A stretch of 64,000 nt of DNA from Pelodera strongyloides (lineage: Eukaryota; Nematoda; Chromadorea; Rhabditida; Rhabditidae): assembly GCA_036852015.1 (NCBI GenBank), contig JAANDG010000040.1, positions 248,001 to 312,000 on the forward strand, in the 5' to 3' direction. The notes beneath the pieces were generated by a model. The model was not told the DNA's origin, ran no database searches, and saw only the letters and a program-made list of their open reading frames with translations. This document shows positions 138 through 53,535 of the stretch, piece by piece. The position numbers and the translations under genes are program-made. How positions within the stretch are numbered: the stretch's first letter is position 1; every line of letters starts with the position of its first letter.

Positions 138-7360
<7,223 letters not shown>

Positions 7361-21346: not shown

Positions 21347-21650
21347 AGACATGAGCGTTAATAACATTACAATACTTTACCTTTAGTTAATATATGAATA
21401 ATTAACTATTTTTCTTGTTAATATATGAATAATTAGCTTTTTTTATTACGTAATAATTTAATTACGCAATATACAAAGCAATTAACAAACCTTGCTGAGC
21501 TAGAAAGAAGGGCTTCCAATACGATGCGGGCACTGTTGCAATTGCGTCCGAATTCCATAAGGAGAAGTTTCATAACTGTAAAAGACAACCAGCAGAAAGG
21601 AAACTATTCTAATTCAAAAATTGGGTAACCTAGAATCTACCAACACCCAA

Positions 21651-22800
21651 TGTCGCGCTAGGCAGGAAACTGGCGCGAGACGAGCACACACTACACTCGA
21701 AGTGTGGAACTCGTATTCGGCAGGCGCCCCGCTCCAGCCATCTTCCCCTACCTATCTAAACTAAATATTTTAACTAGAGTGCCACGCTGCTTCATGACTA
21801 ATAATAAAAATATATGTGATACCCCATGCGCGCTAGGCAGGAAACTGGCGCGGGACGAGCACACACTACACTCGAAGTGTGGAACTCGTATTCGGCAGGC
21901 GCCCCGCTCCAGCCATCTTCCCCTACCTATCTAAACTAAACTAAACTAAATATTTTAACTAGAGTGCCACGCTGCTTCATGATTAATGATAAAAATATAT
22001 GTGGTACCCCATGCGCGCTAGGCAGGAAACTGGCGCGAGACGAGCACACACTACACTCGAAGTGTGGAACTCGTATTCGGCATGCGCCCCGCTCCAGCCA
22101 TCTTCCCCTACCTATCTAAACTAAACTAAATATTTTAACTAGAGTGCCACGCTGCTTCATGATTAATGATAAAAATATATGTGGTACCCCATGCGCGCTA
22201 GGCAGGAAACTGGCGCGAGACGAGCACACACTACACTCGAAGTGTGGAACTCGTATTCGGCAGGCGCCCCGCTCCAGCCATCTTCCCCTACCTATCTAAA
22301 CTAAACTAAATATTTTAACTAGAGTGCCACGCTGCTTCATGATTAATAATAAAAATATATGTGGTACCCCATGCGCGCTAGGCAGGAAACTGGCGCGAGA
22401 CGAGCACACACTACACTCGAAGTGTGGAACTCGTATTCGGCAGGCGCCCCGCTCCAGCCATCTTCCCCTACCTATCTAAACTAAACTAAACTAAATATTT
22501 TAACTAGAGTGCCACGCTGCTTCATGACTAATAATAAAAATATATGTGATACCCCCCGCGTAGAATAAGTCACGATATCACACTCAATTACGTAACAAAA
22601 ATGAAGTGAATAAAATTCCCACATTAGACCAGCACCCCATGTCCATGTCGCGCTTAGGCAGGAAACTGGCGCGGGACGAGCACACACTACACTCGAAGTG
22701 TAGAACTCGTATTCGGCAGGCGCCCCGCTCCAGCCATCTTCCCCTACCTATCTAAACTAAACTAAACTAAATCTTATATGTTGTGCCACGCTGCATCATA
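21651..22800. repeat. Satellite-like tandem array, unit about 180 bp
   Basis: Six units begin at GGCAGGAAACTGGCGCG (21661, 21836, 22021, 22201, 22381, 22657). Spacings are 175-185, with the last stretched by an insertion. Each carries the hairpin ACACTCGAAGTGT, CAGCCATCTTCCCCTACC and a variable number of CTAAA steps. Units two to five are almost identical. No coding potential is seen. Confidence 0.93.
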
Positions 22801-41140: not shown

Positions 41141-44100
41141 ATGTTAAAAACAACGCGGGACCGGCGGGATGACGGTTCTTCATGTATATCCAAACTCTGT
41201 CTTACAATAGTTATTGTGGCGTTGTCATTGATAGGTGAGTAACATAATATTGTCTGTAAGCGAAGACAGCGCCGCGCGCGGCATGTTTGCCAGTCTTTCG
41301 CGAAGTGCTACTTTCAAATATTATCCATGAACCCTCCTATTTCTAACGAAAAAAGTGCAAAGCTAGGCTGTAAAGATGGAATTGGTTGCCGAAAAATGTA
41401 ACATTATCAGTATTTTGTAATTACATAATTAAAATTTCAGGAATTGCCATCGTTGTTTCGGCCGTTCTGATATATATGAACTCGCAAAGGGTACAAGAAG
41501 AAATTAGAGAGAGTAATGATTATCTCAGGAAATTGGTACAAGAAGTTAATGATAATCAAACGTCGACATGGAAGGTGAGTAATAATCAGCTAATTAGAGA
41601 TTCGAAAGTAACTGATTCTTAGCCAACCTCGTTGGAATCTGTTAAAACTTACGTGAATTGTCTAGTGTAGGACTTGACTCTGAGATATCTGATGTGTTTT
41701 CTTTCCTCGTTCTATTTTTTAATATTTTATACAAAGAGCTTAGTTAGTTACACTTTCTCTATTGACTTACATATGTTTTTCGGTCCAATCATGGGATGTA
41801 ACATAACATTTACTACGGACATATAAAAATCTAAGCACCCCCCTATAATCGAAATCTGCACAAAACGTAACGTAACGTAACGGGCGGTACATAGAAAAAT
41901 GCATCTCCGATGTCTCTGATTCATGGCTACGAAATTAGAGCTCAATGAGATAAGCAAACGCGACCACTGAGCAAAAATTCCACAGCGACTCCGCAGCGAG
42001 CTATAAGCGATTAAAGTGAGTTAGAGAACGACTAAAGATCACTGTGACTTCGAAGACGCAGAGTAAGCGGCCAATATCGATCCGTCAATAGGAAAAGGAA
42101 GTCTAAGTTCCGTTTACTTTTAATATTTGGCAAAGTGCCAAAAAAATGAAAATTGCTGATACCGTGGTGTGCACTTCCCTTTCGGGACCCATGAACAATA
42201 TGATATCAAATTCCGAAAAAACTCCACTCGCGCGGTCCATATATGGAAATGTTTCTGGTGATGACGTCATCAAAAACGAAAATCATCGGAATCGATCCGT
42301 TCAAAGTGCTAACATATTCAGTATGAAGAGATAGGTTCAGAAGTGAGATTCATCTTCTCGCTTCAGCAATGATTCAGAATCTATGACGTCAAAAATAAGT
42401 CGACGTGCCAACTTCATCGTAGCACCAAAGTAATGATGCAAATGAAGTTCAATGGTGATGATAGACGCGCATTTGACTTAGACGGGCAACATGCCTTCTG
42501 CTTCAGAATCTATGACGTCAAAAATAAGTCGACGTGCCTAACTTCATCGTAGCGCCAAAGTAATGATGCAAATGAAGTTCAATGCTGATGATAGACGCGC
42601 ATTTGACTTAGACGGGCAACATGCCTTCTGCTTCAGAATCTATGACGTCAAAAATAAGTCGACGTGCAAAGTTCATCGTAGCGCCAAAGTAATGATGCAA
42701 ATGAAGTTCAATGCTGATGATAGACGCGCATTTGACTTAGACGGGCAACATGCCTTCTGCTTCAGAATCTATGACGTCAAAAATAAGTCGACGTGCCAAC
42801 TTCATCGTAGCACCAAAGTAATGATGCAAATGAAGTTCAATGCTGATGATAGACGTGCATTTGACTTAGACGGGCAACATGCCTTCTGCTTCAGAATCTA
42901 TGACGTCAAAAATAAGTCGACGTGCCAACTTCATCGTAGCGCCAAAGTAATGATGCAAATGAAGTTCAATGCTGATGATAGACGCGCATTTGACTTAGAC
43001 GGGCAACATGTCTTCTGCTTCAGAATCTATGACGTCAAAAATAAGTCGACGTGCCAACTTCATCGTAGCGCCAAAGTAATGATGCAAATGAAGTTCAATG
43101 CTGATGATAGACGCGCATTTGACTTAGACGGGCAACATGCCTTCTGCTTCAGAATCTATGACGTCAAAAATAAGTCGACGTGCAAACTTCATCGTAGCGC
43201 CAAAGTAATGATGCAAATGAAGTTCAATGCCGATGATAGACGCGCATTTGACTTAGACGGGCAACATGCCTTCTGCTTCAGAATCTATGACGTCAAAAAT
43301 AAGTCGACGTGCAAACTTCACCGTAGCGACATAGTAATGCTGCAAATCAACTTCAATGATGATGTCAGGCGCGCAATCGACTTAGACGGGCAATACCGCT
43401 TCTGCTTCAGAATCTATGACGTCAAAAATAAGTCGACGTGCAAACTTCGCCGTAGTGATATAGTAATGCTTAAACTAAACTTCAATGATGATCTCAGACG
43501 GGCGTTTGACTCAGAAGGGCAACATGTCTTCTGCTTCAGAAGCTATGACGTCAAAAATAAGTCGACGTGCAAACTTCACCGTATTGATATAGTAATGCTG
43601 CAAATCAACTTCAATGATGATGTCAGACGGCATTCGACTTCAGACGGGCAATACCGTTTCTGCTTCAGAATCTATGACGTCAAAATAAGTCGACGTGCAA
43701 ACTTCATCCGTAGTGATCAGTAATGCTTCAAACTAACTTCAATGATGATCTCAGACGGGCGTTTGACTCAGAAGGGCACATGTCTTCTGCTTCAGAAGCT
43801 ATGACGTCAAAAATAAGTCGACGTGCAAACTTCACCGTATTGATATAGTAATGCTGCAAATCAACTTCAATGATGAATGTCAGACGCGCATTTGACTTCA
43901 GACGGGCAATACCGTTTCTTCTGCTTCAGAATCTATGACGTCAAAAATAAGTCGACGTGCAAACTTCACAGTAGTGACATAGCGATGCTGCAAATCAACT
44001 TCAATGATGATATCAGACGCGCATTCGACTCAGACGGGCAATACCGTTTCTGCTTCAGAATCTATGACATCAAAAATAAGTCGACGTGCAAACTTCACCG

Positions 44101-47100
44101 TAGTGATATATTTATGATGTAAATCAACTTCAATGATGATGTCAGACGCGCATTTGACTTAGACGGGCAACATGTCTTCTGCTTCAGAATCTATGACGTC
44201 AAAAATAAGTCGACGTGCAAACTTCACCGTTATATAGTAATGCTGCAAATCAACTTCAATGATGATGTCAGACGCGCATTTGACTTAGACGGGCAACATG
44301 TCTTCTGCTTCAGAAGCTATGACGTCAAAAATAAGTCGACGTGCAAACTTCACCGTAGCGACATAAATGCTGCAAATCAACTTCAATGATGATGTCAGAT
44401 GCGCATTCGACTCAGACGGGCAATACCGTTTCTGCTTCAGAATCTATGACGTCAAAAATAAGTCGACTTGCAAACTTCACCGTAGTGTAATTAATGCTGC
44501 AAATCAAATTCAAAGCGCGTTTGATTAGACGGCAACAGTCTTCTGCTTCAGATCTATGACGTCAAAAACAAGTCGACGTGCAAACTTCACCGTAGCGACA
44601 TAGTAATGCTTCAAATAAGTTCAATGATGATGTCATGCGCGCATTCGACTTAGACGGGCAATACCGTTTCTGCTTCAGAAGCTATGACCAAAAAAGTGGA
44701 CGTGCAAACTTCACCGTAGACATAAATGCTGCAATCAACTTCAATGATGATGTCAGACGCGCATTCGACTAAGACGGGCAATACCGTTTCCGCTTCAGAA
44801 GCTATGACGCCAAAAATAAGTAGACGTGCAAACTTCACCGTAGTGATATATTAATGATGTAAATCAACTTCAACGATGATGTCAAACGCGCATTTAACGC
44901 AGAAAAAAAGGAAAATAGTACATAAAATATAAGGTTTGCGCGAACGCTCAAGTAAAACGTAAAACGCTAGAGCGAGGCGCGCGCGCTATGACGTCAAAAA
45001 TAAGTCGACGTGCAAACTTCACCGTAGCGACATAAATGCTGCAAATCAACTTCAATGATGATGTCAGACGCGCATTCGACTAAGACGGGCAATACCGTTT
45101 CTGCTTCAGAAGCTATGACGCCAAAAATAAGTAGACGTGCAAACTTCACCGTAGTGATATATTAATGATGTAAATCAACTTCAACGATGATGTCAGAAGC
45201 GCATTTAACGCAGAAAAAAAGGGAAATAGTACATAAAATATAAGGTTTGCGCGAACGCTCAAGTAAAACGTAAAACGCTAGAGCGAGGCGCGCGCGCAGC
45301 GCGCGCCGAGCTCTAGTCTAAGCACCCCCTATAAAAAAAGATTGCCATTCGCGTCACGTAACGGTAACGCTCCAAAAGTGCATCGCAAATCGAAAAAGTA
45401 ATCCTATGAAAAATTAGAGCTCAATGAGATAAGCAAACGCGAACATTGTGTCGAGTGTCCCCGGCGATCCCAAAGCGAGATATAAGCAAAAGTCGCGTGT
45501 TAGAGAACGACTAAATAGCACTGCGACTGCTAAGACGCAGAGTAGACGGCCAGTATCGATCGCACTATTGCGCAATAAAACCAGGCCAGCCTAACCTCAA
45601 ACTTGGGTAATTAAACCGCAGCTGGCAAAGAACAGGGAGAAATTGTCCGCATAAATAGAAATGATGCGGCGGATCAATTTGATACGCAAAGCGATCGTTC
45701 TTTGACATTGAAGGTACTATGATCGTCAAAATTAAGTCGAAATTTAAAATTCACCGTAGATCAAGTCTAATGATGTAAATCAACTTCAATTATGATGTGA
45801 GACGCGCATTTGACTTAGACGGGCAACATGTCTTCTGCTTCAGAATCAATGACGTCAAAAATAAGTCGACGTGCAAACTTCACCGTAGTGACATAGTAAT
45901 GCTGCAAATCAACTTCAATGATGATGCCAGACGCGCATTCGACTCAGACGGGCAATACCGTTTCTGCTTCAGAATCTATGACGTCAAAAATAAGTCGACG
46001 TGCAAACTTCACCGTAGCGACATAGTAAGGCTGCAAATCAACTTGAATGATGATGCCATACGCGCATTCGACTCAGACGGGCAATACAGTTTCTGCTTCA
46101 GAATCGATGACGTCAAAAATAAGTCGACGTGCAAACTTCACCGTAGCGACATAGTAATGCTGCAAATCAACTTCAATGATGATGTCAGACGCGCATTTGA
46201 CTTAGGCGGGCAACATGTCTTCTGCTTCAGAATCTATGACGTCAAAAATAAGTCGACGTGCAAACTTCACCGTAGCGACATAGTAATGCTGCAAATCAAC
46301 TTCAATGATGATGTCAGACGCGCATTTGACTTAGACGGGCAACAATGTTCCCTTCTGCTTCAGAATCTATGACGTTCAAAAATAAGTCGACGTGCAAACT
46401 TCACCGTAGCGACATAGTAATGCTGCAAATCAACTCAACTTCAATGATGTTGTCAGACGCGCATTCGACTCAGACGGGCAATACCGTTTCTGCTTCAGAA
46501 TCTATGACGTCAAAAATAAGTCGACGTGCAAACTTCACCGTAGCGACATAGTAATGCTGCAAATCAACTTCAACGATGATGTCAGACGCGCATTTGACTT
46601 AGACGGGCAACATGCCTTCTGCTTCAGAATCTATGACGTCAAAAATAAGTCGACGTGCAAACTTCACCGTAGCGACATAGTAATGCTGCAAATCAACTTC
46701 AATGATGATGTCAGACGCGGATTTGACTCAGACGGGCAACATGTCTTCTGTTTCAGGATCTATGACGTCAAAAATAAGTCGACGTGCAAACTTCACCGTA
46801 GCGACATAGTAATGCTGCAAATCAACTTCAATGATGATGTCAGGAGCGCAATCGACTTAGACGGGCAATACCGCTTCTGCTTCAGAATCTATGATGTCAA
46901 AAATAAGTCGACGTGCAAACTTCGCCGTAGTGATATAGTAATGCTTAAACTAAACTTCAATGATGATCTCAGACGGGCATTTGACTCAGAAGGGCAACAT
47001 GTCTTCTGCTTCAGAAGCTATGACGTCAAAAATAAGTCGACGTGCAAACTTCACCGTATTGATATAGTAATGCTGCAAATCAACTTCAATGATGATGTCA

Positions 47101-50100
47101 GACGGGCATTCGACTCAGACGGGCAATACCGTTTCTGCTTCAGAATCTATGACGTCAAAAATAAGTCGACGTGCAAACTTCACAGTAGTGACATAGCGAT
47201 GCTGCAAATCAACTTCAATGATGATATCAGACGCGCATTCGACTCAGACGGGCAATACCGTTTCTGCTTCAGAATCTATGACATCAAAAATAAGTCGACG
47301 TGCAAACTTCACCGTAGTGATATATTTATGATGTAAATCAACTTCAATGATGATGTCAGACGCGCATTTGACTTAGACGGGCAACATGTCTTCTGCTTCA
47401 GAATCTATGACGTCAAAAATAAGTCGACGTGCAAACTTCACCGTAGTGATATAGTAATGCTGCAAATCAACTTCAATGATGATATCAGACGCGCATTTGA
47501 CTTAGACGGGCAACATGTCTTCTGGTTCAGAAGCTATGACGTCAAAAATAAGTCGACGTGCAAACTTCGCCGTAGCGACATAAATGCTGCAAATCAACTT
47601 CAATGATGATGTCAGACGCGCATTCGACTCAGACGGGCAATACCGTTTCTGCTTCAGAATCTATGACGTCAAAAATAAGTCGACGTGCAAACTTCACCGT
47701 AGTGATATATTAATGCTGCAAATCAACTTCAATGATGATGTCAGACGCGCATTTGACTTAGACGGGCAACATGTCTTCTGCTTCAGAATCTATGACGTCA
47801 AAAATAAGTCGACGTGCAAACTTCACCGTAGCGACATAGTAATGCTTAAAATAAACTTCAATGATGATGTCAGGCGCGCATTTGACTTAGGCGGGCAACA
47901 TGTCTTCTGCTTCAGAATCTATGACGTCAAAAATAAGTCGACGTGCAAACTTCGCCGTAGTGATATAGTAATGCTTCAACTAAACTTCAATGATGATGTC
48001 AGGCGCGCATTCGACTTAGACGGGCAATACCGTTTCTGCTTCAGAATCTATGACGTCAAAAATAAGTCGACGTGCAAACTTCGCCGTAGTGATATAGTAA
48101 TGCTTCAACTAAACTTCAATGATGATGTCAGACGGGCATTTGACTTAGACGGGCAGCATGTCTTCTGCTTCAGAATTTATGACGTCAAAAATAAGTCGAC
48201 GTGCAAACTTCACCGTATTGATATAGTAATGCTGCAAATCAACTTCAATGATGATGTCAGACGGGCATTTGACTCAGACGGGCAACATGTCTTCTGCTTC
48301 ACAATCTATGCCGTCAAAAAATAAGTCGACGTGCAAATTTCACCGTAGCGACATAGTAATGCTTCAAATAAACTTCAATGATGATGTCAGGCGCGGAGTT
48401 GACTTAGACGGGCAAAATGCCTTCTGCTGCAGAATCTATGACGTCAAAAATAAGTCGACGTGCAAATTTCACTGTTGCGACATAGTATTGCTTCAAGTAA
48501 ACTTCAATGATGATGTCAGGCGCGCATTTAACGCAGAAAAAAAGGAAAATAGCACATAAAATATACTTGCGCGAACGCTCAAGTAAAACGTAAAACGCTA
48601 GAGCGAGGCGCGCGCGCAGCGCGCGCCGAGCTCTAGTCTAACCTTAAACTAATAAAAATAATTTAGGCCAAATACAATAAATTCGGCTCAAAAGCGCATG
48701 ACTACGGTATGAAGTCAAAGAGGAATGAAACGGCAGTGACGGAATACTTCAAACTTCTCGAGAAATACTTTGAATCGGAACTGATGAAGGATCATATAAA
48801 GTGGGTTTTTTATTGTCTTCTAACTTATTAGAAAGTACCCGATCAAATATCAGCTGGCGGCAGTCCTTTAGTGGTGCGCGGATGTGCGCCAATTGTTTGC
48901 AAATCAATGTGGTGCAACTGCGCTATGCATGTTAAAAAGTTTAAAAGAAATCTTTATTCATAAACCAGTAACGCGTAAAGAAGTATAAAGAGAAAGGACA
49001 CACAAGCTGGTCCCAAACCAAAGTAGCTACGTGTGTCTTATTGTTAGTTCATAAGTGAGTGCAGAACGGATATCAGACTACTTCAGGCAATTGCAAGACT
49101 TCCCTGACAAAGAACTGCCCGAATCATTCGACGCTCGACAGAAATGGCCCCATTGTCCTTCAATACAAAATGTGCCTAATCAGGGTGGATGCGGTTCTTG
49201 CTATGTAAGTTTAAAATCCAATTTACTTACGTACCCACGTCACTTAGGTTCTCTTTGCATAACTATGTATTGTTCTTGGAGGTGCACGTGCAGTGTTTTT
49301 ATGGACAGGTACTCCTGATACATAACACGATGTTCATATATACATAGGTTCATCGCTTCCACCTTGTACGAGCAGAGTAGATAACGAGTTCCATATCACA
49401 CATTAATTAGCATATAACATTCAGGCAGTTGCCGCAATGGGCGTGGCTTCGGACCGTGCGTGTATCCAATCGAATGGCACTTATAAGAGTCTTTTCTCAG
49501 AGGAAGACGTGCTCGGATGTTGTTCAGTTTGTGGAAATTGCCTTGGCGGAGATCCACTCAAAGCACTCACTTATTGGGTTCAGGAGGGACTAGTCACCGG
49601 TTGGGAATATCGATTTAGTCAATCAATTATCAGTTATTAAAGCGAAATGCTAGCCTCTTTCGAAAATTTGCATATGATAAGCAAATCATATGTATCCTAT
49701 GCTAATTCTGCACGATTGCCGTGAACGATCGTACAAAATTAGCATAGGATACATAGGATTTACTTATCGTATGCAAATTTTCCAAAGGGGCTAGCATTTC
49801 GCTTTAAGACGAGTAGGAACCGAACCTGCCCCCTAGATTTAATGCTCACCGCATTAACAACCACTGCGCCACCATAAATAGGCACCAGGTTTAGCTCCGA
49901 GCTGGCATCGCACAGGATCTGTTGTGATCTAAACAGCCAAGCGTGTGACGTAGGTGGTTCTGAGTTGAAAGCTTGTCAGTGGATTGAAAATTTTTGATTA
50001 TTCACGGTTTTAAATTCATTTCTTTTCAGGTGGTCGTGACGGTTGTCGTCCGTATAGTTTTGACATCTCGTGTGGAGTGCCTTGTTCTCCAGCCGTTTTC

Positions 50101-51610
50101 CCTGAAAATGAGAAGAAAAGGACATGTATCAGAAGGTAATAGAGAATAGTATAATAATAGTACCAGGATAGTAGCATAATATAAACAGATTAGAGTGAAA
50201 ATAGCTTCGTTGCTGCGATGTCGCCATTGCAGGATCGTCACCCTCCCTCTTGTGGGAGCGCCTCGCCACTTGCTTTGCGCGATCACTGCGCGACGTTATG
50301 CATTGTAGTTCATAAATTTATTCCATTTAGGTGCCAGAACATCTACTACCAAAACCGATACGACGACGATAAGAACTTTGGTACGTTTTTTTTTAATTCC
50401 ATTCCCAGACCAGCCTAACTTACTTCAGGAACTTATTATATTACGCATACTCAAAGCTTTTCAGAACGAATCACACTTGGACTCGGAGCACGCTAAAGCA
50501 TATACATATTTATTAATTACTATTCCAGCCTCCGTCGCCTATTCAATGTACCCTCGTTCGATGACTCTTTCTGCTGACGGAAAGAAGAGGGAGAAAGTGC
50601 CGACCATTATTGGACATCTGAATACAACTGCTACAGAACCACTCACACTTGAACAGGTCGACATCATTTAGTTTCATAGCTCAGTGGAGCAAAGCCGCCA
50701 GATGAACAACCAAAGTTCGTTCGTACACGGTCAGGCCAGCATTAGGTTTCATTTCGTTCGCTTCCTTCGGGCACGGGATAGCGATAGGGTACTTTAATAA
50801 GAAGGCCTGACCCACCCTGGGTAAGAGTCGAACGGCCGAGATGCAATACCTGCACTGTTCTAGAGACAGCGCCTTAGACCACTATTTCACCTATCCGATT
50901 AAAACATATCCATTTAGATCCGAACTGTGATCAAAAAAGAGTTGTTATTGTTTGGGCCAACTACAATGGCATTCCCAGTTCCCGAAGAATTTCTGCATTA
51001 TGCTTCAGGTACGCCTTGATTCAACAAACTTATGCTACATTCGGCAGTTTCACATTTCAGTACAATGATGGTCAAGCGCTCCTCTGATATGCGAGAAAAT
51101 ATGCACAATTCTATATGGCACGTCTTTGGCAGGTTTTGGATGGCACACGACAAGGTCGCCAAAAGTGTGCCAAATGTGCGCCAACTGAAATTGAATATTT
51201 TAGGTGTATTCCGGCCATTAGAAACGGATCGGAAATTCAATGACCGTATTGTCTACTGGCACGTTGTCAGGTTAATTGGATGGGGACAAGAGACATCTGG
51301 GGATCATTATTGGTTGGCGGTGAACAGTTTTGGACGGCACTGGGGAGATAATGGTAGGAGTTATTGATTTTTTTCTAACTGAATCAATAATTGATCTATC
51401 ATACTTTGAAATTATCATCCTTGACATTCCTAGAGCAATTTATCAGGGTTGAGTCAGCTCGAATATAACATAGGTGTTGATGATAATGATGACTGCATTC
51501 AAGCTTTAACCTTTTGTCGCTTTAAAATCTGGTTATCTTCAGGAGTCTTCAAAATCAACGTCGACTCAATGGAGAAATTCGGACTAGAATACGAAGCCGC
51601 CCTTATTTAA
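41141..51610 (+). CDS. Membrane-anchored cathepsin B-like cysteine protease, 424 aa
   Basis: Papain-family (C1A) protease with an N-terminal anchor. Eleven exons join in phase: 41141-41234, 41441-41574, 48667-48800, 49060-49204, 49425-49599, 50030-50135, 50331-50380, 50529-50656, 50918-51008, 51204-51353, 51543-51610. Basic residues (KTTRDRR) precede a hydrophobic segment at about 19-43, so a type II topology with the enzyme lumenal or extracellular is inferred. TSTWKAKYNKF at the start of the propeptide and [17 protein letters not shown] at the mature N-terminus are cathepsin B-like. Catalytic residues are present: Q162, C168 (GCGSC), H372 ([10 protein letters not shown]), N393 (NSF). Tyr replaces the usual Trp after C168, Phe replaces the Trp of NSW, and the His-His of the cathepsin B occluding loop is missing ([14 protein letters not shown]). 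The acceptor at 49059 (GTGAG) is weak but is the only one keeping frame. Intron 2 is 7.1 kb and holds two Helitron-like elements. Confidence 0.94.
42363..44905 (+). repeat. 129-bp minisatellite array in copy 1 (about 20 units)
   Basis: The unit contains TATGACGTCAAAAATAAG, GTCGACGTGC, TTCATCGTAGC or TTCACCGTAGC, and GACGGGCAA. The first seven or so units (to about 43320) are one subtype (AATGATGCAAATGAAG); the rest are another (AATGCTGCAAATCAAC). One frame reads 43 residues per unit ([34 protein letters not shown]). It is open from 42563 to 43723, then broken by small indels. Each unit carries the palindromes TGACGTCA and GTCGAC. Confidence 0.95.
44906..45200 (+). repeat. Internal partial copy of the element tail followed by repeat units
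   Basis: A tail (GCGCGAACGCTCAAGTAAAACG, CTAGAGCGAGGCGCGCGCG) stops inside the hairpin at about 44987, and the array resumes at once with TATGACGTCAAAAATAAG. The true tail follows near 45200-45316. This marks a recombination or replication slip within the element. Confidence 0.7.
45278..45316 (+). other. 3'-terminal palindrome of Helitron-like copy 1
   Basis: CTAGAGC and GCTCTAG bracket GGCGCGCGC-GCA-GCGCGCGCC, giving a nearly complete 39-base palindrome whose last four bases, CTAG, are the element end. Confidence 0.85.
45784..48540 (+). repeat. 129-bp minisatellite array in copy 2 (about 21 units)
   Basis: Same unit as copy 1, second subtype throughout. The 43-residue frame is open over 45797-46372, 46554-47336 and 47584-48324. 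A run of distinctive variants ([20 protein letters not shown], then SYDV, then HRIDIV) occurs in the same order at about 43450-43620 and 46930-47100, showing that the two arrays share a higher-order block. Confidence 0.95.
48598..48636 (+). other. 3'-terminal palindrome of Helitron-like copy 2
   Basis: Identical in layout to that of copy 1: CTAGAGC ... GCTCTAG around a GC stem-loop, ending CTAG. Confidence 0.85.
49638..49807. mobile_element. Near-perfect fold-back element in a protease intron
   Basis: Second copy of the 15167-15333 element (TTAAAGCGAAATGCTAGCC ends, centre ATTGCCGTGAACGAT). It begins 38 bases after the donor of exon 49425-49599. Confidence 0.92.
49809..49876 (-). repeat. tRNA-like fragment
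   Basis: Minus-strand TGGCGCAGTGGTT (A-box-like) and GCAGGTTCGGTTCC (B-box-like). It directly abuts the fold-back element in the same intron. Confidence 0.5.
50812..50897 (-). repeat. tRNA-Leu/Ser-like fragment
   Basis: Minus-strand GTGGTCTAAGGCGC (A-box-like of type II tRNAs) and CCGTTCGACTCTTACCC (T arm) span about 85 bases with a long variable region. It ends 20 bases before the acceptor of exon 50918-51008. Acceptor-stem pairing is poor. Confidence 0.5.
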
Positions 51611-52265: not shown

Positions 52266-53535
52266 CAAGCTGTGGTGACCGACCGCGCAAGGGGGCAACG
52301 CGCAATGGGAGGGGGACGAGCCGCGACGAACTGCACCTTGCAGGGGGGGGGACGCGCACGGGGGTGGCGAGCGACGCAAGGGGATGGAGGGACGCGTAAG
52401 GGGGGAGGCAGCGCCGCGCAGGGGGTTAGCGAGCCGCAGGAGGGGGAGGAGCTTCCGCGCAGGGGTTAGCGTGCGCGCGGGTGGGGGGGGGGGGGGGGGG
52501 GGGACGCGCTTGGGGGAGAGCCGCGCGCAATTAGGGAGCACCCCGCGCCAATGGGGAGCAGCGCCGCGCATGGGGGGGGGGGGGGGGGCAGCGCCGCGCG
52601 GGTGGAGCGGGCGAGGAAGTGACCGCGCGCGCAGGGGGACACGCGCGCAGGGGGGGAGCGAGCCGCGCGGGGGAGGGGAGAGCGAGTGAGCCCAGCCGCG
52701 CGAGGAGGGGGAGTGAGCGCGAATGGGGGGGATGGGGCAGGGGCGCAGGGGCGGGGGGAGAGCAGCTCGCGGGGAGCGCGACGTGCAGGGGGGGAGCGAG
52801 CCGCGCAGGGAGAGCAAGGCGGGGAGGGAGAAGAGCCGCGCAGGGAGCGGCGGTGCAACGGGGGAGCAGCGTCGCGCAACGAGGGCGAGGGGGGGAGGGC
52901 CGCTGAGCGAGCCGCAGGACGCGGTTGGAGCCGGGGGAGGGATGGGACGCGCAACGGGGGGCAGGGTGCGCGGGGGGTGAGCGACCGCGCGGGGAGGGAG
53001 AGCGAGCACCGCGCAGGGGAGCGAGCCGCGCAGGTAGCCGCGCAGGGAGGACTCGGGGGCAGGGGGGGGAGCAGCGCGGGGGAAGGGAGCGCAGGGAGGG
53101 AAGCGAAGCGGGGCAGGGGAGCAGGGGTAGGGAGCGGGGGAGCAAGCCGCGGGGGGGGGGGAAAAGCCGCTGGGGGGGAGCAAGCCGCGCGGGGAAGGGA
53201 TCACCGCGCGGGGGGGGCAAGCCGCGCGGGGAGGGGAGCAGCCGCGCGGGGAAGGAGAGCACCGCGCGGGGAAGGAGAGCGAGCCGCGCGGGGAAGGAGA
53301 GCAAGCCGCGCGGGGAAGGAAGCAAGCCGCGCGGGGAAGGGGAGCAAGCCGCGCGGGGAAGGAGAGCAAGCCGCGCGGGGAAGGAGAGCAAGCCGCGCGG
53401 GGAAGGAGAGCGAGCAGGGGGGAGATCCGCGCGCAGGGGGAGCAGCCGCGCAGGGGAGTGTCGCGCAAAGCGGGGGGGGGGAGCCGCGCAGGAGAGCGAG
53501 CCGCGCGGGGAGAAGCGCGCTAAAAGGGACATGAC
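52266..53535. repeat. 1.27 kb G-rich low-complexity block
   Basis: The plus strand is strongly G over C, with many runs of 4 to 22 G (the longest at about 52479-52501) mixed with CCGCGCG motifs. At 53210-53410 it becomes regular, with units of about 20 bases (AGCAAGCCGCGCGGGGAAGG). Long open frames on both strands (up to 419 codons) are by-products of the base composition. G-quadruplex formation on the plus strand is likely. Confidence 0.9.

Follow-up and report, generated by a model that had tools for sequence, protein, structure and literature searches.

A head-to-tail pair of minisatellite-filled Helitrons in Pelodera strongyloides, with likely autonomous partners and a suggested breakpoint at the tip of the terminal hairpin

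In a 64,000-nucleotide stretch of the Pelodera strongyloides genome (assembly GCA_036852015.1, contig JAANDG010000040.1, positions 248,001 to 312,000 of the forward strand; hereafter the window), a long 129-bp minisatellite lies just upstream of exons of a cathepsin B-like protease, and this locus raises the question of what kind of element carries the repeat, what moves it and how its body grows. The region 41830-48636 is very probably a pair of head-to-tail non-autonomous Helitrons, likely mobilised in trans by a Rep/helicase-encoding Helitron of the same genome with the same 3' terminus. Two such Helitron-like elements with TC...CTAG ends had been proposed from the sequence alone (the sequence-only reading), with a host A on the left and a T on the right, a 9-bp hairpin stem ending nine bases before each 3' end and about 41 minisatellite units. 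Direct reading and a script bore out the elements and their flanks, the hairpins were found where they had been placed, and Tandem Repeats Finder (TRF) recovered the units as runs of 16.6, 2.8 and 21.7 copies. The 5' ends, TCTAAGCACC, lie at 41830 and 45317 and the 3' ends, GAGCTCTAG, at 45316 and 48636, with canonical Helitron termini (5' TC, 3' CTRR) in both elements and no bases between them, the CTAG/TC junction being direct (Table 1). Minisatellite-bearing Helitrons and tandem Helitrons are already known kinds of element.

The whole assembly (159.9 Mb in 1171 contigs) was searched with the element ends. Among 120 of 231 matches listed for a sorting-nexin exon, the best ones with a name were to nematode proteins. 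The first 271 bp gave at least 41 matches (best 40 of 135 candidates scored) and the last 201 bp at least 47 (best 40 of 223 candidates scored), and the boundaries of the copies that were fetched fall, unshifted, on the same bases as those of the window elements. The exact 3' 15-mer is present in 216 genome copies and a reversed control 15-mer in none, so the recurrence of the terminus is not due to chance. The next base is T in 195 of these 216; in 30 the 15-mer runs straight into TCKARR, a match to the start of non-autonomous elements (chance level approximately 1 in 128 at equal base use with the T given, by our own estimate), and in 16 into TCTACT, the autonomous 5' end, so that CTAG/TC junctions are observed in both kinds of array. 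At external ends the right base was T in all seven cases, and the left base was A in seven, G in three and T in three of 13 (C91, C494 and C658 included; C1056, with an altered start, left out). The proposed insertion between A and T therefore held for the right-hand T, which is near-strict, but only in part for the left-hand A; a T/T target of the Helentron/HINE type does not fit, with T on the left at just those three ends.

Empty sites were found for a sister two-element array on C579, which sits inside a dispersed repeat. Its joined flanks match across the join in 30 of 41 rows, 28 of them nearly full-length on both flanks (best 40 of 150 candidates), and in all five such sites that were fetched the flanks meet exactly at A/T (GAGGA/TAAGC) with nothing lost or duplicated, so the array carries no target-site duplication. 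The left flank of a single element on C97 contains a copy of that element's empty site. The flanks of the window array matched the window alone and gave no empty homologue (best 40 of 150 candidates). Recent spread is indicated by 3.1-kb elements in C146 and C369/C196 that are 99.9% identical. Exact recurring ends, clean empty sites and Rep loci with the same 3' terminus establish that the family is genuinely Helitron and probably has an autonomous partner, and support the non-autonomous family with recurring termini that had been proposed. Neither outcome that the sequence-only reading had named as refuting, a lack of further copies or shifted boundaries, was observed.

The candidate partners were located by a profile search of the genome, in which Helitron_like_N gave six matches at three loci (C237, C53 and C250), each with HUH, Y2 and Walker A motifs. 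Pfam matches, among them PIF1 helicase (E 8.8e-56), were obtained in the C237 and C250 frames; no endonuclease family, a Helentron trait, was among the Pfam matches of 19 C237 and C250 frames, 10 of which have 100 residues or fewer. The last 41 bp of the window array are unchanged in the Rep elements of C237 and C53, and their hairpin and end recur at C250. Of the Rep/helicase partner with the same ends that had been anticipated, the 3' terminus was thus present at three of three Rep loci, but at the 5' end only TCTA is common. The autonomous elements are 14.2 kb (C237) and 12.5 kb (C53) long, each preceded by CTAG and followed by the TCTACT of another unit, and autonomous-type junctions number six within approximately 32 kb on C53 and five within approximately 37 kb on C237, in one orientation. 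Directly upstream of the C237 autonomous element lies an element with a diverged 129-bp array, whose longer matches to the window unit have 74-78% identity; the minisatellite is thereby linked to the autonomous arrays. The autonomous elements (L038:1556-2248, L039) also have 124-bp tandem repeats of their own near the 5' end, where the 129-bp window unit has no match. Stop codons fall inside four of the six Helitron_like_N matches, and most of these, like the short gaps that split the coding blocks, are probably intronic. Between C237 and C53, over 2240 codons in 33 blocks (macrodomain blocks included), the synonymous rate (dS) was 0.68 and the non-synonymous rate (dN) 0.102; to judge from the resulting dN/dS of 0.15, both Rep-bearing elements are under purifying selection. 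Between C237 and C250 the synonymous and non-synonymous differences (pS 0.778, pN 0.244; 1545 codons) are given without a ratio, since synonymous sites are saturated.

A macrodomain gene is predicted in two of the autonomous copies, where it lies upstream of Rep. On C237 (L038:3140-4355) it is predicted to have five exons, bounded by four AG acceptors and five GT donors; these give a 258-residue frame that contains no stop, so the 3' end of the gene is provisional. This frame matches Pfam Macro (E 1.4e-17, 64.1 bits, cut-off 22) and, in the PDB, MacroD-type macrodomains (E 7.3e-13); single exons alone fall under the Pfam cut-off. The C53 copy has matching exons in the equivalent position (43-61% identity), and none were found at the C250 element. 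In the macrodomain-region blocks (3116-4347), pS is 0.44-0.87 and pN 0.12-0.29 between C237 and C53. A cluster of more distant macrodomain matches on C111 (35-47%) is a possible host source of the gene. No paper in the open PubMed Central (PMC) collection searched mentioned a Helitron together with a macrodomain, in either spelling.

The terminal hairpin proved longer than the 9-bp stem that had been read. Outside this stem and its GCA loop, a GA/GA internal loop is followed by an outer stem of 7 bp (CTAGAGC/GCTCTAG) in which the terminus itself is paired (z score -3.5; one of 200 shuffles folds as well), and four 3' ends that were folded all gave 7 + 9 bp, a GCA or GAA loop and a paired CTAG, with z scores of -2.9 to -4.1. 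The sequence-only reading had also missed an additional 3' tail within element 1 (44904-44986); it is broken and stops at the hairpin tip. Breaks of this kind recur across the genome. The first arm of the hairpin was found at 226 places, with loop and second arm exact in 147. Among the first 100 places, counted by eye, 37 have no exact second half: 30 of these comprise 14 that keep some second arm or end (L048, L053 and L057, with altered ends, among them) and 16 that break at the tip, and the remaining seven comprise five tip breaks and two that keep the end, giving tip breaks at 21 of 100 places. A shortened 7-bp stem (GGCGCGC-GCA-GCGCGCC), trimmed on both sides around the same loop, accounts for 10 of the 30 variants.

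Because this pattern demands the whole first arm, a second scan without that demand was carried out on 28 long loci and the window. It yielded 85 tails, 64 full and 21 truncated, six of the latter being 16-bp matches judged spurious; nine truncated tails end within positions 78-80 of 99, at the boundary between first arm and loop, and the other six at 51, 58, 58, 60, 69 and 90. Pooling both scans gave 25 tip breaks with 21 distinct junctions. Sixteen of the 25 re-enter a tandem unit (eight the window unit, at seven entry points; three an autonomous-type 129-bp unit, at one point; five a 124-bp unit), and three continue at an element 5' end, two exactly at TC and one at base 3. For the 21 breaks with any match, both strands having been searched, the best match was always in the same orientation, although two matches were weak and far from the junction. 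These data suggest that breakage recurs at the tip of the 3' hairpin and, as the breaks mostly re-enter a tandem unit, they point to a route by which the minisatellite may grow. Hairpin-tip junctions were named in no title or abstract opening among the papers listed (15 of 43 and 12 of 111 matches). One dense cluster of scars lies at C90:170047-177407 (minus strand), with nine hairpin first arms in 7.4 kb, six of them tip-broken.

Could the tandem elements and half-hairpin scars have been produced by errors in assembling GC-rich palindromes and near-identical repeats? Palindromes are generally hard to sequence, and the right flank of the C369 and C196 arrays is common over approximately 2 kb at 99.6% while their left flanks are unrelated. 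However, the scar duplicate in the window shows divergence (96.2% identity over 312 bp), three of the scar junctions are found more than once, in two cases on different contigs, the window-type unit is entered at seven different points, and a whole two-element array sits exactly at A/T with empty sites elsewhere; an artefact is very unlikely. C369 (L013/L014/L042) and C196 (L015/L016) hold the same B,B,A array and may represent alleles, a duplication or a misassembly. Composite mobilisation from this shared array was set aside as unusable, since it may be one locus assembled twice.

The proposed mechanism is as follows. Rep would nick at TC and one strand would be displaced, with the terminal hairpin as the end signal; copying past CTAG, or repeated copying of a joined-end circle, could then yield two or more units that insert together. 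In the single-stranded intermediate the tip might be cut, by Rep or by a host hairpin nuclease, and the tip-broken strands could rejoin within the minisatellite or to the TC/5' end of another element; the repeat body would then become longer, and half-hairpin scars like the one at 44966-44986 would remain. The cutting and rejoining at the tip is our own reading. An alternative account of the abutting elements is serial insertion, in which each new Helitron would likely enter at the T that follows the CTAG of an element already in place, so that neighbours abut without read-through or concatemer. The external ends with G on the left show that G/T is used, so that CTAG/T qualifies as a target, adjacent elements frequently belong to different subfamilies, and a study in bats reports Helitron inserted directly beside Helitron (PMC4778049). 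By contrast, C196_1 and C196_2 are 99.90% and C369_1 and C369_2 99.87% identical, as copying one unit twice would give, and several same-orientation junctions occur within the autonomous arrays. Serial insertion has a real, though somewhat less than even, prospect of being correct.

Several observations weigh against trans mobilisation with joint insertion. Apart from TCTA, the autonomous and non-autonomous 5' ends have little in common, which leaves the 3' end as the basis for cross-mobilisation, and the left base is A at only seven of the 13 external ends. The frequent difference in subfamily between neighbours is not predicted by simple concatemer formation, some arrays may be misassembled, given the flanks of C369 and C196, and six of the 25 tip breaks lead into sequence of no recognised kind. 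No transposition event was seen.

Approximately 41 units of 129 bp occupy most of both element bodies, and the sequence-only reading had singled out the unit as special because it is in frame and bears a palindrome. One frame of the unit is indeed open, giving array frames of 393, 197, 308 and 246 residues, and Pfam Gemini_AL3 scores above its cut-off on two of them (33.7 and 40.4 bits versus 24.1), as might be expected if the array were a coding region of 43-residue repeats carried or expressed by the element. The identity with Gemini_AL3 was rejected, as it was judged a short match inflated by repetition. In 478 near-full units the distinct changes comprise 216 non-synonymous, 65 synonymous and six stop changes, against a neutral expectation of 219.6, 57.5 and 9.9; second codon positions vary most and indels are mainly of 1 bp. 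This neutral pattern argues against conserved coding in the unit, no protein relative was found at E 0.001 among 7995 candidates scored, and no PDB relative of the repeat frames was found. Coding repeats are thus extremely improbable, the claim that the frame sets the unit apart was not upheld, and the array is likely passive cargo. No RNA family reached its gathering score in the window, and the array stretch 46226-46354 (129 bases, variant 3' part) folds as single-stranded DNA no better than shuffles (z score 0.47). The best-conserved 11 bases of the unit are ATGACGTCAAA (tied with the next register); TGACGTCA is a putative CRE-type motif.

The comparison with known systems draws on the available passages of the papers cited. 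Helraiser circles have precise CTAG/TC junctions, and new 3' ends arise by truncation or read-through (PMC4778049); tandem Helitron arrays are known in plants, bats and silkworm (PMC5876387, PMC4067079), and satellites occur within Helitrons in Caenorhabditis (PMC4595182) and within Helentrons in oyster and fly (PMC7492417, PMC4067079). Like the elements described here, Helraiser and Helibat have TC...CTAG ends, a 3' hairpin, CTAG/TC circles and, in bats and plants, tandem arrays; a minisatellite body, a macrodomain gene and a hairpin-tip scar, all observed or predicted here, are not mentioned in those passages (PMC4778049, PMC5876387). Helitrons of C. elegans similarly spread embedded satellite arrays, but the named families have 11-40 bp repeats, whereas here a single 129-bp unit makes up most of each element and the elements follow one another in chains (PMC4595182). 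The oyster Cg_HINE Helentrons share conserved flanks around a central satellite-like array, many copies and the lack of target duplication, but are of Helentron type with oligo-T targets, arrays mostly of five monomers or fewer and no identified partner, in contrast to the TC...CTAG ends, commonly more than 10 units per element and Rep partner with the same 3' end found here (PMC7492417). DINE-1/HINE elements are likewise non-autonomous and rolling-circle, with a 3' palindrome, tandem repeats in some and an autonomous partner in the genome; they differ in their TT insertion preference, where the left base here is A, G or T, and carry subterminal inverted repeats (PMC4067079).

As regards the host gene, Peptidase_C1 matches lie at 49425-49625 and 51251-51355, the frame 49055-49210 matches the start of the domain, and approximately 430 bp separate the end of the array from the first exon that matches Peptidase_C1, at 49065. 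Upstream of the array, an exon-like frame ends at 41574 with a GTGAGT donor at 41575; it has no significant Pfam match and its phase misfits the acceptor at 49065. The position of the array inside one protease intron, as had been claimed, is plausible from the protease exons downstream, but the upstream frame does not bear it out. Elsewhere in the window, a 180-bp tandem repeat is present in five copies (95% matches) at 21645-22555, and a GC-rich degenerate minisatellite with units of approximately 20-22 bp lies directly downstream of the protease exons at 52342-53415.

Table 1. Coordinates of the two Helitrons, their parts and the neighbouring host features in the window
Feature	Position	Strand	Basis or remark
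Element 1, non-autonomous Helitron, 3487 bp	41830..45316	+	TCTAAGCACC...GAGCTCTAG; script and direct reading
Element 2, non-autonomous Helitron, 3320 bp	45317..48636	+	Ends as element 1; abuts element 1
Left flanking host base A	41829..41829	.	
Right flanking host base T	48637..48637	.	
Element 1 main 129-bp array, 20 unit matches including partial	42373..44898	+	TRF, unit matching
Element 2 129-bp array, 22 unit matches including partial	45717..48532	+	TRF, unit matching
Internal broken 3' tail, stops at hairpin tip and runs into 129-bp unit (tip scar)	44904..44986	+	
Re-copied last two units and tail	44985..45296	+	96.2% over 312 bp to preceding stretch; 86.6% to element 2 tail
Element 1 terminal hairpin: 7-bp outer stem including CTAG, GA/GA loop, 9-bp stem, GCA loop	45278..45316	+	Folding
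Element 2 terminal hairpin, last 41 bp identical to 3' end of two Rep-bearing elements	48598..48636	+	
Cathepsin B-like protease exons	49065..51355	+	Peptidase_C1 in frames 49055-49210, 49407-49640 and at 51251-51355

Whether satellite arrays in Helitrons grow by capture or from the element's own sequence is discussed in the oyster study (PMC7492417), and growth from within becomes testable in P. strongyloides because autonomous and non-autonomous members, near-identical copies, empty sites and half-hairpin scars occur in one genome. A further, rather doubtful possibility is that this Helitron lineage carries a macrodomain gene of its own and that the hairpin tip is a real point of cleavage and rejoining; the terminator would then build the minisatellite, and the macrodomain protein would strip host ADP-ribose from the nicked intermediate. 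ADP-ribose signalling responds to nicked DNA, and a rolling-circle transposon that carries a macrodomain would connect this signalling with DNA mobility.

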